DNA of 64,000 bases, from positions 1 to 64,000 of the forward strand of contig JALEKD010000005.1 in NCBI GenBank assembly GCA_022769285.1, given 5' to 3'. The position numbers and the translations under genes are program-made. The notes under the pieces are model-generated. The model had not been told where the DNA came from. It saw nothing but the letters and a program-made list of their open reading frames with translations, and searched no databases. The first letter of the stretch is position 1, and the number at the start of each line of letters is the position of its first letter. Below, piece by piece: positions 11,735 through 58,525 of this stretch. The DNA comes from Prevotella sp. Lineage in GTDB: Bacteria > Bacteroidota > Bacteroidia > Bacteroidales > Bacteroidaceae.

Positions 11735-11923
11735 TGCGGCACCGCTTTGAAAAGTAAAAAAGCAAAAGGCTAAAAAGGTAAAAGCGCTGCCAGAGTGCTG
11801 GCACTTGCTTGCTATGCCACGATAGGCACCGTAGAAAATGAAAAGACCGGTCTTTACGTTTCTAATGATGGCTCCCAACTTGCTAATGACGGCTCCGGGA
11901 AACGTGAAGGTCGGTCTCCACAA
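11735..11923. repeat. Dispersed degenerate repeat with 21-bp units (copy A)
   Basis: Two adjacent 21-bp units, each starting CTAATGAyGGCTCC, lie at 11862-11882 and 11883-11903. They are bounded by a 19-bp inverted repeat (AGACCGGTCTTTACGTTTC at 11844-11862 against its imperfect complement at 11899-11917, 16 of 19 matching). The whole stretch is homologous, in opposite orientation, to 48171-48340: translations of both keep similar strings such as IRNVKTGLFIF and IRNTKAILFIF. Confidence 0.65.
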
Positions 11924-12113
11924 AATGGGTGATGTTTTCCGCCATTACGGAGTGGCTCTCCATTCCAGTGCTTTTTACATTTTTACTTCTCTTTCCTTTT
12001 ACTTTTCTACCGGTGATGGCAACGGCGGGAACTGCGGGTAGACACAAAAAAAATGGTGCTGCCCACCGTAGTGAGCAACACCATCTGTATTACATTCATT
12101 TATGTGCTTGTCG

Positions 12114-21353: not shown

Positions 21354-21902
21354 TTAGATGTTGTCGGCCTTGATTTCAAAGTAGCTCTGAGGGTGGTTGC
21401 ATACCGGGCACACCTTAGGAGCCTGCTTGCCCACTACGATGTGGCCGCAGTTGCGGCAGATCCACACAGCGTCGCCCTCGCGCGAGAATACTACGGCATC
21501 CTCGATGTTCTGGAGCAGCTTGCGGTAGCGCTCCTCGTGGTGCTTCTCGATGGCAGCTACGCCCCGCATCTTGGCAGCTATCTCCACGAAGCCCTCCTCC
21601 TCGGCCTCCTGAGCCATGCGGTCGTACATGTCGGTCCACTCGTAGTTCTCGCCCTCAGCGGCAGCCTTTAGGTTGCTTACCGTGTCCTTGATGGCACCGC
21701 CCTCCAGGTACTTGAACCATATCTTGGCATGCTCCTTCTCGTTGTTGGCGGTCTCCTCGAAGAGGGCAGCTATCTGCTCGTAGCCATCTTTCTTGGCGCG
21801 CGATGCAAAGTAGGTGTACTTGTTACGGGCCTGCGACTCGCCGGCAAAGGCAGCCATCAGGTTTTTCTCAGTCTTGGTTCCTTTAAGTTCTTTCATAATC
21901 AT
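21354..21902 (-). CDS. rbr: Rubrerythrin
   Basis: A 182-residue cytoplasmic non-haem di-iron peroxidase that reduces hydrogen peroxide with electrons from NAD(P)H via rubredoxin-like carriers. The ferritin-like domain carries paired Glu and ExxH motifs ([18 protein letters not shown], and the later EKHHEERY), and the C-terminal rubredoxin domain binds one iron through CRNCG and CPVCN. The start may be 21902 (MIMKELKG) or 21896 (MKELKG); the latter fits the family better. It diverges from oxyR across a 230-base region with OxyR-like palindromes, so peroxide-induced control is likely. Confidence 0.95.
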
Positions 21903-21940
21903 GTAGTGTTTAATGTATAATGTTTTTTCTGTTTCTGATG

Positions 21941-21948
21941 CAAAGTTA
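21941..21948 (-). promoter_or_regulatory. -7 promoter box of rubrerythrin
   Basis: TAACTTTG on the minus strand, about 40 bases before the rubrerythrin start. The palindromes at 21960-22017 cover its -33 region and upstream, where an activator such as OxyR would bind. Confidence 0.5.
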
Positions 21949-21959
21949 GTGTATTATCG

Positions 21960-22017
21960 ATTATCGTCCAAACGATAATATCTATCGCTGGATAGAAAAA
22001 ATCTATGATTATGATAA
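21960..22017. promoter_or_regulatory. Candidate OxyR operator cluster
   Basis: Three adjacent elements: the perfect inverted repeat ATTATCG-N6-CGATAAT (21960-21979), the perfect inverted repeat TCTATC-GCTG-GATAGA (21981-21996), and ATAG-N7-CTAT-N7-ATAA (21992-22017). The last closely follows the ATAG-N7-CTAT-N7-ATAG spacing known for enterobacterial OxyR. They sit between the divergent rubrerythrin and oxyR promoters. Confidence 0.55.
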
Positions 22018-22037
22018 CGGCGGCGGTTTTATTTTCG

Positions 22038-22045
22038 TAACTTTG
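22038..22045 (+). promoter_or_regulatory. -7 promoter box of oxyR
   Basis: TAACTTTG, about 88 bases before the oxyR ATG. The leader contains the hairpin GCCACT-ttat-AGTGGTGGC and then an A+T tract ATTATATATAATAAGGTATA just before the start. Confidence 0.5.
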
Positions 22046-22132
22046 CAGCCAGTAGCCACTTTATAGTGGTGGCCTGTCCCGTGGCGATGGCTGCCTGGGA
22101 GCCAGCTATTATATATAATAAGGTATAGGACT

Positions 22133-23059
22133 ATGACATTACAGCAGATGGAGTATATTGTGGCGGTGTACAGGTTCCGCCACTTTGCCAAGGCGGCCGA
22201 GTATTGTGGGGTGACCCAGCCCACGCTGAGCGCCATGATACAGAAACTGGAGGCCGAGCTCGACATCAAGATATTCGAACGCTCCTCGCAGCAGGTGATA
22301 CCCACCGAGGTGGGTCGCAAGGTGGTGGAGCAGGCCTGGAAGGTGCTGGTGCGCGCCAACCGTATCAAGGACATTGTGCGCGAGGAGAAAGGCTCCTGTG
22401 AAGGCACCTTCCGCCTGGGCATACTGCCTACCATAGCCCCCTATCTGCTGCCCCGGTTCTTCACCCAGCTGGAACGCGAGCACCCGGAGACCGATATAAG
22501 GGTCATGGAGATGAAGACGGCCGACATCAAGCGGGCCCTGAGCCGGGGCGAGCTCGATGCGGCCATCTTAGTGAGCTTGGACGACATGGACAATTACGTC
22601 CAGACGCCGCTTTTCTACGAACAGTTCTTGGCCTATGTGTCGCGGGGCGACGCCCTGTACAGCCACCGGGCCATCAAGACGGCCGACCTGCATCACGAGT
22701 TCTTGTGGTTGCTGGACGAGGGGCACTGTTTCCGAGACCAGTTGGTCAAGTTCTGCAACCTACAGGCGGCTACCAGCAGCAAGCAGACCTACTCCTTAGG
22801 CAGCATAGAGACCTTTATGCGTATGGTAGAGGGTGGCCAGGGCGTAACCTTTATCCCCGAGTTGGCGCTGGAGCAGTTGTCGCCCGCCCAGCACGAGTTG
22901 GTGCGCCCCTTTGCCCTGCCCATACCCACCCGGCAGGTGGTGCTGCTCACCACTAAGACCTTTGTGCGTCACTCGGTGCTCAGCCTCATAGCCGAGGCCG
23001 TACGCACCCATGTGCCCGAGCGCATGCTTCACTTTAATAATACCGAGCAGCGCGTCTGA
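22133..23059 (+). CDS. oxyR: Peroxide-sensing LysR-type regulator OxyR
   Basis: A 308-residue LysR-family regulator. The winged-helix domain is N-terminal (AAEYCGVTQPTLSAMIQKLE). The regulatory domain has the two redox cysteines of OxyR in EGHCFRDQLVKFC, at residues 199 and 208, the same numbers and spacing as the enterobacterial protein, so disulfide switching is very likely intact. It lies divergent to rubrerythrin, a classic target, across a palindrome cluster. The neighbouring iron and cytochrome operon could also be under its control, though its promoter at 21199-21230 shows no clear OxyR site. Confidence 0.95.
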   Translation: MTLQQMEYIVAVYRFRHFAKAAEYCGVTQPTLSAMIQKLEAELDIKIFERSSQQVIPTEVGRKVVEQAWKVLVRANRIKDIVREEKGSCEGTFRLGILPTIAPYLLPRFFTQLEREHPETDIRVMEMKTADIKRALSRGELDAAILVSLDDMDNYVQTPLFYEQFLAYVSRGDALYSHRAIKTADLHHEFLWLLDEGHCFRDQLVKFCNLQAATSSKQTYSLGSIETFMRMVEGGQGVTFIPELALEQLSPAQHELVRPFALPIPTRQVVLLTTKTFVRHSVLSLIAEAVRTHVPERMLHFNNTEQRV

Positions 23060-23100
23060 TGTGTCAGATACGCTGCCTATACATTATTATAAAATAGATT

Positions 23101-24384
23101 ATGATCCACTATAACCACCCATCACCCACCACCGTTTTTCTAAAGGCCGTCTTCGGCTCTCTAAAGACGGCTCCCAGCTTGCTAAAGATGGTCGCGGGCG
23201 CGCTCATGGTAGCCACAGGCTCGCTCATGACCGTTGCCGCCACCGCCGCCCCCCACTCTGGCCATTCCCGCACCACCATCAACACCTCCCTGCAGCACCT
23301 GGCCGAGCGGATGATGCGCGGCAAGCAGGGCAGCATAGTGGCCATAGACCCCGCCACGGGTGCCATTAAGTGTATGGTTAGCGCCTCGCCTCGGGGTGAT
23401 AGCCTCCAGCGCGCCGTGTCGGTAGCCTATTCACCCGGATCTACTTTCAAGGTGGCCCAGGCCATCGTCATGCTCTCCGAGGGAACCCTCAGCCCCACCA
23501 CACAGTACAGCTGTGCCCGCGGGTTTACCCAGGGCGGCATACACATAGGCTGCCATGCCCATACATCGCCCCGCGCCGTGGTGGGAGCCCTCGGCACATC
23601 GTGCAACGCCTTCTTCTGCAAGTCGTTTATGGACATGATAGGCAATGCCAAGTATCGCACGCGCGCCGAGGCCATAGACCGCTGGCATGCCTACATGAGT
23701 AGTTTCGGTCTGGGCCGTTGCTTAGGTACCGATGTGGGCCCCGAGGCTACGGGACTTATGCCCTCGGCAGACTATCTGAAGCGTGTACACGGCCAGTGGA
23801 CCCCGCAGACTATCATGTGGGTGGGCATGGGCCAGGGCGAGGTTACCGCCACGCCCATGCAGCTGTGCAACCTGGCCGCCGTGATAGCTAACCGCGGCTA
23901 CTACTACACGCCCCATCTCTGTAGGGCCACTCCGGACCACCCCATAGACTTGGCCTATAGGAGCAAGCACGTGGCCATGGGTACCCCGCAGGCTTACCAG
24001 ATTACCATACAGGGCATGCGTGCCGCCGTGGTTTCGGGCACGTGTGCCTCGATTAACCGTGCGGCTTACGCGATATGTGGCAAGACCGGCACGGCCGAGA
24101 ATGAGGGCGAGGACCACTCACTCTTCATCGGCTTTGCCCCCATGGACAAGCCCCGCATAGCCGTGGCTGTGGTGGTCGATAACGGGGGCTTCGGGGCCGA
24201 CATGGCGGCGCCCATGGCGTCGCTCATCATCGAGCGGTACCTTACCGGCCGGCTGCGCGAGTACTCTAAGTATCAGGTGGAGCACTGGGCCGGCCAGGCC
24301 GTGACACCCTATGTGCCGCCGACGGATACCGCCAAGGCGGTCAAGGCCCCAACGGCCAAGAAGCATAAAGCTCGGCATAAATAA
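23101..24384 (+). CDS. Penicillin-binding protein, transpeptidase domain only
   Basis: A 427-residue secreted or anchored D,D-transpeptidase-like protein of the class B PBP2 type. Active-site motifs are complete: STFK (SxxK), SCN (SxN) and KTGTAEN (KTG), plus the GMGQGEVTATPMQL segment. Class B enzymes usually have 600-700 residues with an N-terminal dimerisation domain; that domain is missing here, and the transpeptidase part follows directly after the signal region. Residues 14-48 are five heptapeptides (LKAVFGS, LKTAPSL, LKMVAGA, LMVATGS, LMTVAAT) encoded by 21-bp repeat units. The C-terminus is Lys/Ala-rich. A start at a later Met (for example Met30) is possible. It converges on the GH25 lysozyme gene. 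Confidence 0.82.
   Translation: MIHYNHPSPTTVFLKAVFGSLKTAPSLLKMVAGALMVATGSLMTVAATAAPHSGHSRTTINTSLQHLAERMMRGKQGSIVAIDPATGAIKCMVSASPRGDSLQRAVSVAYSPGSTFKVAQAIVMLSEGTLSPTTQYSCARGFTQGGIHIGCHAHTSPRAVVGALGTSCNAFFCKSFMDMIGNAKYRTRAEAIDRWHAYMSSFGLGRCLGTDVGPEATGLMPSADYLKRVHGQWTPQTIMWVGMGQGEVTATPMQLCNLAAVIANRGYYYTPHLCRATPDHPIDLAYRSKHVAMGTPQAYQITIQGMRAAVVSGTCASINRAAYAICGKTGTAENEGEDHSLFIGFAPMDKPRIAVAVVVDNGGFGADMAAPMASLIIERYLTGRLREYSKYQVEHWAGQAVTPYVPPTDTAKAVKAPTAKKHKARHK
23140..23244 (+). repeat. Five tandem 21-bp units inside the PBP coding start (copy B)
   Basis: Five units of exactly 21 bases start at 23140, 23161, 23182, 23203 and 23224. The first three begin CTAAAG, the last two CTCATG. The second (CTAAAGACGGCTCCCAGCTT...) closely matches the intergenic unit at 11862-11882 (CTAATGATGGCTCCCAACTT...). 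The units are in frame with the gene and encode its hydrophobic signal or anchor region. Confidence 0.75.
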
Positions 24385-47984: not shown

Positions 47985-48404
47985 GAAAAAGCCATAAAAA
48001 TAACGGCCACGCCCTATTTTGGGGCAATAGGTAAAAGCGGCAACTCCCTAAGTCCCCCCTCAAGGGGAAATCATTGCAGACACATGCTCCCAGACCTCTA
48101 AAATGGGAGTGGAGAGCGTAAATGTGGAGACTGGTAGCCACTCAGGGATAACGGGAACTATTCCTAAAAACGTGGAGACCGGTCTTTATGTTTCTCGGAG
48201 CCACCTTTAACGAGCTGGAAGCCGTTATTAGAAACACAAAGGCCATCCTTTTTATTTTTCGCGACAGCCATTGGTGTGTAGAAAGCCGGTGCCTTCACGC
48301 AGGTAGTGCTTTTTACTTCTTCACCCTTTTATCTTTTTACCTCTCAAAATCTTTTTTACCTTTAAAATTCTGCTCTCCGAGGGGGATAAAACGGCCGAAA
48401 TGAT
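47985..48404. other. Intergenic region, mostly degenerate repeat
   Basis: No gene is supported. It holds a C-rich segment (AAGTCCCCCCTCAAGGGG near 48050), then the repeat at 48171-48340, homologous to 11735-11923, and a pyrimidine-rich end. The ORF 48188-48403 is translated repeat. Confidence 0.5.
48171..48340. repeat. Dispersed degenerate repeat with 21-bp units (copy C)
   Basis: Read on the minus strand, two 21-bp units lie at 48211-48231 (begins CTAATAACGGCTTCCAGCT) and 48190-48210 (begins TTAAAGGTGGCTCCGAG), followed by AAAGACCGGTCTCCACG. Copy A ends its second unit with GGTCGGTCTCCACA in the same way. Translations of the two copies share more than half of about 50 residues. Confidence 0.65.
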
Positions 48405-58245: not shown

Positions 58246-58525
58246 GGCGCTCGGCTTGTACTATTTTTGCATAAAATAGGCTGCGCCTCGGCCATTAGAG
58301 CAAGCTCATGGCGCTCGGCTTGCACTATTTTTGCATAAAATAGGCTGCGCTTCGGCCATTAGAGCAAGCTCATGGCGCTCGGCTTGCACTATTTTTGCAT
58401 AAAATAGGCTGCGCCTCGGCCATTAGAGCAAGCTCATGGCGCTCGGCTTGCACTATTTTTGCATAAAATAGGCTGCGCCTCGGCCATTAGAGCAAGCTCA
58501 TGGCGCTCGGCTTGCACTATTTTTC
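58246..58525 (+). repeat. 64-bp tandem repeat array, four copies plus a partial
   Basis: Four almost identical units of exactly 64 bases start at 58246, 58310, 58374 and 58438, with a fifth partial copy to 58525; only a few bases differ between copies. Each contains TATTTTTG (a -7 promoter box) within the inverted repeat TATTTT-tgcat-AAAATA, and a hairpin GCCAT-ta-GAGC-aa-GCTC-ATGGC. A diverged single copy lies at 2343-2400. Confidence 0.92.

Follow-up and report, generated by a model that had tools for sequence, protein, structure and literature searches.

The window, the whole 64,000-nucleotide stretch of a Prevotella sp. genome analysed here, carries on its + strand a penicillin-binding protein (PBP) transpeptidase gene at 23101..24384, encoding 427 aa. 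The call is based on the open reading frame from ATG 23101, its start context and a PF00905 domain, which scores 141.5 bits against a curated Pfam cut-off of 22.1 and identifies the product as a transpeptidase. The gene scores below the cut-off for full-length PBP2/MrdA, and a PBP paralogue occupies a separate 616-codon frame elsewhere in the genome (C5:16850). A LysR-type regulator gene (22133..23059, +; Pfam PF00126 and PF03466) ends 41 bp before the PBP start at 23101; within 21354-23101 it sits between the rubrerythrin and PBP genes. In two relatives rubrerythrin is the direct divergent neighbour of the PBP orthologue, with no LysR gene between them, and no LysR match was found at orthologue loci in the relatives examined. 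Alignment of the PBP with its orthologues, from the genus and from the three best GTDB relatives (57-58% identity), begins only at about residue 33-59, mostly 42-59. Those that could be read have ordinary signal peptides of unrelated sequence, such as MFRLKTLIAGLIAACPVMA in Hallella bergensis. Because a LysR gene intervenes here and not in two relatives, and because the N-terminus differs from those of the orthologues, the comparison indicates that the 5' end of the PBP gene is rebuilt in this lineage, where both the upstream gene and the N-terminus are new.

What makes up this N-terminus? Five 21-bp units occupy 23140-23244 and are read in frame as PBP codons 14-48; the coordinates and frame that the sequence-only reading assigned to them proved correct. 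Scored on the + strand against a unit profile trained without the PBP, unit 1 (LKAVFGS, 23140..23160) reaches 7.0 bits, unit 2 (LKTAPSL, 23161..23181; 0 mismatches to the family pattern) 32.7 bits, unit 3 (LKMVAGA, 23182..23202) 11.8 bits, the weak unit 4 (LMVATGS, 23203..23223) -5.2 bits and the probable unit 5 (LMTVAAT, 23224..23244) 1.4 bits. The edges of the array are sharp, with unit-profile scores of -33 and -54 just outside it. As a control for these scores we used 1,130 hydrophobic Leu-starting N-terminal 21-mers from other genes, none of which scores 7.0 or more, while 0.44% score at least 1.4, the value of unit 5, and 1.7% at least -5.2, that of unit 4. Measured against these comparable 21-mers, the leave-out scores place units 1-3 securely above chance, make unit 5 a probable true unit and leave unit 4 a weak candidate, marginal on its own.

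Unit 2 belongs to a dispersed family: allowing up to 3 mismatches, the 2.3-Mb genome contains 126 copies, against 0 for a reversed control pattern; about 100 of the 126 matches are listed with positions. The assembly comprises 52 contigs and is about 85% complete; ~817 kb of it (about a third), window included, was read directly. The rest was covered by pattern and protein searches and by stretches taken around the listed matches. Genes were called with a simple codon-usage script fitted on the surveyed 817 kb. The 21-bp family proves to be the core of a MITE-like element of about 200 bp with inverted arms and usually two units; among 107 distinct copies, the PBP aside, the unit number is one in 20, two in 82 and three in five. 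A left part ending at about GAAAAGACCGACCTTTAGCTTT is followed by the units, a right part from GTAAAGGTCGGTCTCCACGATTT and a pyrimidine-rich tail. Matches to an element profile built from 38 intergenic elements reach about 220 bp. The intergenic copies previously noted in the window at 11.86 kb (+) and 48.2 kb (-) both proved to be genuine members of this large family: the first spans 11817..12021 on the + strand (units 11862-11903; nhmmer 181.7 bits) and the second 48104..48288 on the - strand (units 48190-48231; 134.9 bits), each being itself in the profile-building set. The element is short (within the 50-1000 bp of MITEs), present in more than 100 copies, mostly intergenic and non-coding, with no coding-type variation, as expected of a MITE. 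The units lie between strong inverted arms, yet conservation runs on beyond these arms.

How is the element distributed and moved? Among 397 other genomes of the genus, just eight have a match within two mismatches, one match each, which suggests a family confined to this species or to unsampled near relatives. The three genomes with the closest orthologues contain isolated 3-mismatch matches and no more; no element was found in viral contigs, and the window has no Rfam match. The sole Y1_Tnp (IS200/REP-type) transposase gene lies at G000:C3:18131-18475, with an element copy at C3:18917, about 340 bp past the gene end; this transposase is a possible mobiliser of the element. Two roles for the element were considered and set aside. 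A lone consensus folds into a long stem, though RNAalifold on an ungapped alignment gives only weak structure, and we do not propose a conserved RNA hairpin. A regulatory or attenuator role is unsupported, since copies are found in each of the four gene arrangements, at no set distance from gene starts, and every same-strand downstream gene start is at least 173 bp away.

The PBP array is clearly related to this element. The stretch 23142..23191 (+) aligns to the intergenic-element profile with 41.9 bits (nhmmer, E=1.4e-11 in 817 kb), where the best match in a reversed-sequence control has E=0.07. Could the 21-bp periodicity instead have nothing to do with the dispersed repeat and have arisen by chance in a hydrophobic segment with biased codon use? 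The compositional bias of signal peptides lends this idea some plausibility, yet it fails already at unit 2, an exact 21-base family member, and it is opposed by the combined match to the element. Nor are the N-termini of other genes anywhere near as repetitive: the PBP has the most repetitive N-terminus at a 21-bp period among 588 genes in the surveyed 817 kb. Its units share 11-13 of 21 bases pairwise (52-62%), and their mean pairwise identity of 12.0 compares with 6.4 +/- 0.64 in codon shuffles, none of 20,000 of which reaches 12.0. We give chance hardly any credence. Unit 1 admits two alignments: one, with a 1-base gap, to the left arm of the element, the other, ungapped, to a unit in an atypical element on contig C28. 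The first 17 bases of unit 3 match C39:87615 with 1 mismatch. That site belongs to an atypical copy at C39:87573-87631, which has oppositely oriented units beside CCAAAGATGGTCGCGGG (the match to PBP unit 3, 1 mismatch). This copy could be close to the source of unit 3.

How much of the array derives from the element? One alternative holds that units 1-3 alone do, having lengthened the n-region, while an ancestral hydrophobic core survives as units 4-5, whose likeness to the repeat would stem from the recurrent use of Leu, Met, Val and Ala codons in hydrophobic segments. The nhmmer match ends at 23191, extension to the right of 23198 is not significant (p=0.12), unit 4 scores -5.2 bits, and a codon shuffle on units 4 and 5 alone gives p=0.047, all as this alternative would predict. 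It accounts less well for unit 5, which in exact register outscores 99.6% of comparable 21-mers, and for a codon shuffle on units 3-5 together, which gives p=0.00015. We regard this reading as possible but do not favour it. Extension of the element match to the left of the array is likewise not significant (p=0.22). At the other extreme, the entire export signal, n-region lysines and core together, would be an array of five units that grew out of a selfish intergenic repeat, the open frame of which resembles an export signal; this we think rather unlikely. If that were so, the repeat could serve as a portable source of new export signals. Neither unit 4 nor unit 5 is strong on its own, so an ancestral signal peptide may account for part of the hydrophobic core.

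Is the array translated at all? Starts in this genome have an A-rich upstream context. By this measure the score of ATG 23101 equals the median for 287 well-defined starts, and all 1,683 internal ATGs tested score lower. The candidates within the array (TTG 23179 and ATG 23188, 23206 and 23227) score like internal ATGs, at levels to which no more than 0.7% of true starts fall. Because ATG 23101 has a typical start context and the downstream candidates lack one, the array is probably translated from ATG 23101; codon statistics also favour the frame from 23101. The contrary view is that the array is an ordinary intergenic copy in a 5'-untranslated region, with the start at TTG 23179 or at ATG 23188, 23206 or 23227, so that only its last part, or none of it, is translated. 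All other convincing copies are indeed intergenic, and initiation at TTG 23179 would leave a signal peptide of 23 residues, a length like that in the orthologues. Against this stand the start scores and the codon statistics, and we judge an untranslated array improbable. If translated as proposed, the element sequence forms codons 14-48 of a PF00905 gene, as in fused elements of the RPE/RU type.

Any such translation is not the rule for the family at large. Of 108 copies inspected, the PBP copy is the sole one in a convincing gene; the remaining overlaps either involve short open frames with low scores or are single-unit matches at the rate of the reversed control. In a protein-level search of the genome with the 35-residue array segment, all other matches fall in open frames of 158 codons or fewer. 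The copy at G000:C52:6638 has a hydrophobic open frame of 68 codons reading LMTAPSLLMMVISLMAMLSALAVVFIL; it was considered as a second coding copy and rejected, the frame being short and showing no sign of a gene. Further candidates overlap weak, short gene calls, none of them convincing. Of the 38 intergenic elements, 34 are open in the same frame (frame 0) as the PBP array, so an open frame by itself proves nothing. Variation at codon positions 1-3 (0.18, 0.24 and 0.16) is not concentrated at third positions, and we therefore reject routine translation of intergenic elements. The similar peptides previously read from intergenic copies do arise from one open frame, which is no evidence that they are made.

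What would translation of the array provide? Lysines 15, 22 and 29 are encoded by the CTA-AAG starts of units and precede the segment MVAGALMVATGSLMTVAATA, which is followed by APHS; cleavage between the two is plausible. In a crude signal-peptide score the N-terminus has a net charge of +3, a best 15-residue hydropathy of 1.76 (1.6-2.2 in the orthologues) and an ATA/AP site. Its n-region is long, at 30 residues. Proline occurs in 83% of intergenic units read in the same frame versus one of the five PBP units, and the PBP array is more hydrophobic than intergenic units (P=0.01; 0.019 versus simulated drift of equal divergence). Because the PBP units mostly lack proline and are more hydrophobic, the array fits adaptation to export, at modest significance.

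We consider it likely that the PBP acquired its export signal by capturing an array derived from the element. The case for capture is good: family copies occur throughout the genome and, this one apart, between genes, the best start precedes the array, and the signal peptides of the orthologues are unrelated. An element copy, or part of one, would have landed at the 5' end of the transpeptidase gene, downstream of the LysR gene. One open frame of the element reads Leu-Lys/Met-Thr-Ala-Pro-Ser, so translation from ATG 23101 could pass through it. About five units would then give the lysines and most or all of the hydrophobic segment of a Sec-type export signal (LLKMVAGALMVATGSLMTVAATA/APHS), and the array would have replaced the unrelated signal peptide present in relatives. 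Translation, export, cleavage and the order of these events are what we infer from the sequence. The sequence-only reading had proposed this capture, and had named orthologues with unrelated signal peptides and a start after the repeat as observations that would speak against it; the orthologues do lack the repeat and carry unrelated signal peptides, but the start here precedes the array. Its further suggestion, that changes in copy number could alter the length of the hydrophobic segment, did not hold up. The units are just 52-62% identical, and the array is not reported by Tandem Repeats Finder. With 11-13 of 21 bases shared, the units are too diverged for easy slippage, which makes ongoing copy-number tuning unlikely. 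Elsewhere in the window, at 58246-58524, lies a 64-bp tandem repeat of 4.4 copies with a 98% match; far better conserved than the 21-bp array, it is the better candidate for copy-number variation.

The PBP thus offers a clean, testable case in which a non-coding repeat would have become a protein-targeting sequence in a conserved enzyme, with more than 100 parent copies remaining for comparison, and the Prevotella group gains a new MITE-like family with internal 21-bp units. A close precedent is found in the enterobacterial repeat units RU-1, RU-2 and RU-3, above all the RU-2 copy in Y. pestis YPO1552 (PMC2759123). RU-2 differs in sequence, is longer, has no 21-bp units and belongs to a different phylum; its host gene encodes a small putative exported protein, whereas the host gene here encodes a conserved transpeptidase. 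In-frame fusion of prokaryotic MITEs with genes is known, and is frequent for the Rickettsia palindromic elements (PMC10969869). Like the PBP case, these are small repeated palindromic DNA read in frame in host proteins (PMC10969869); they occur in many genes, whereas only one of the 108 copies inspected here falls within a convincing gene, and there at the export signal. In build, the closest known element is BrickBuilt of Porphyromonas gingivalis, a species-restricted Bacteroidales MITE with an internal minisatellite, reported to be strictly intergenic (PMC4596501). The two are alike in build: both are intergenic and place short direct repeats between a leader and a tail with inverted repeats, but BrickBuilt has 23-nt units, longer arrays and 19 copies. 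Mobile DNA put to such use is not unprecedented, and the PBP case joins in-frame element fusion with a MITE of the BrickBuilt type.
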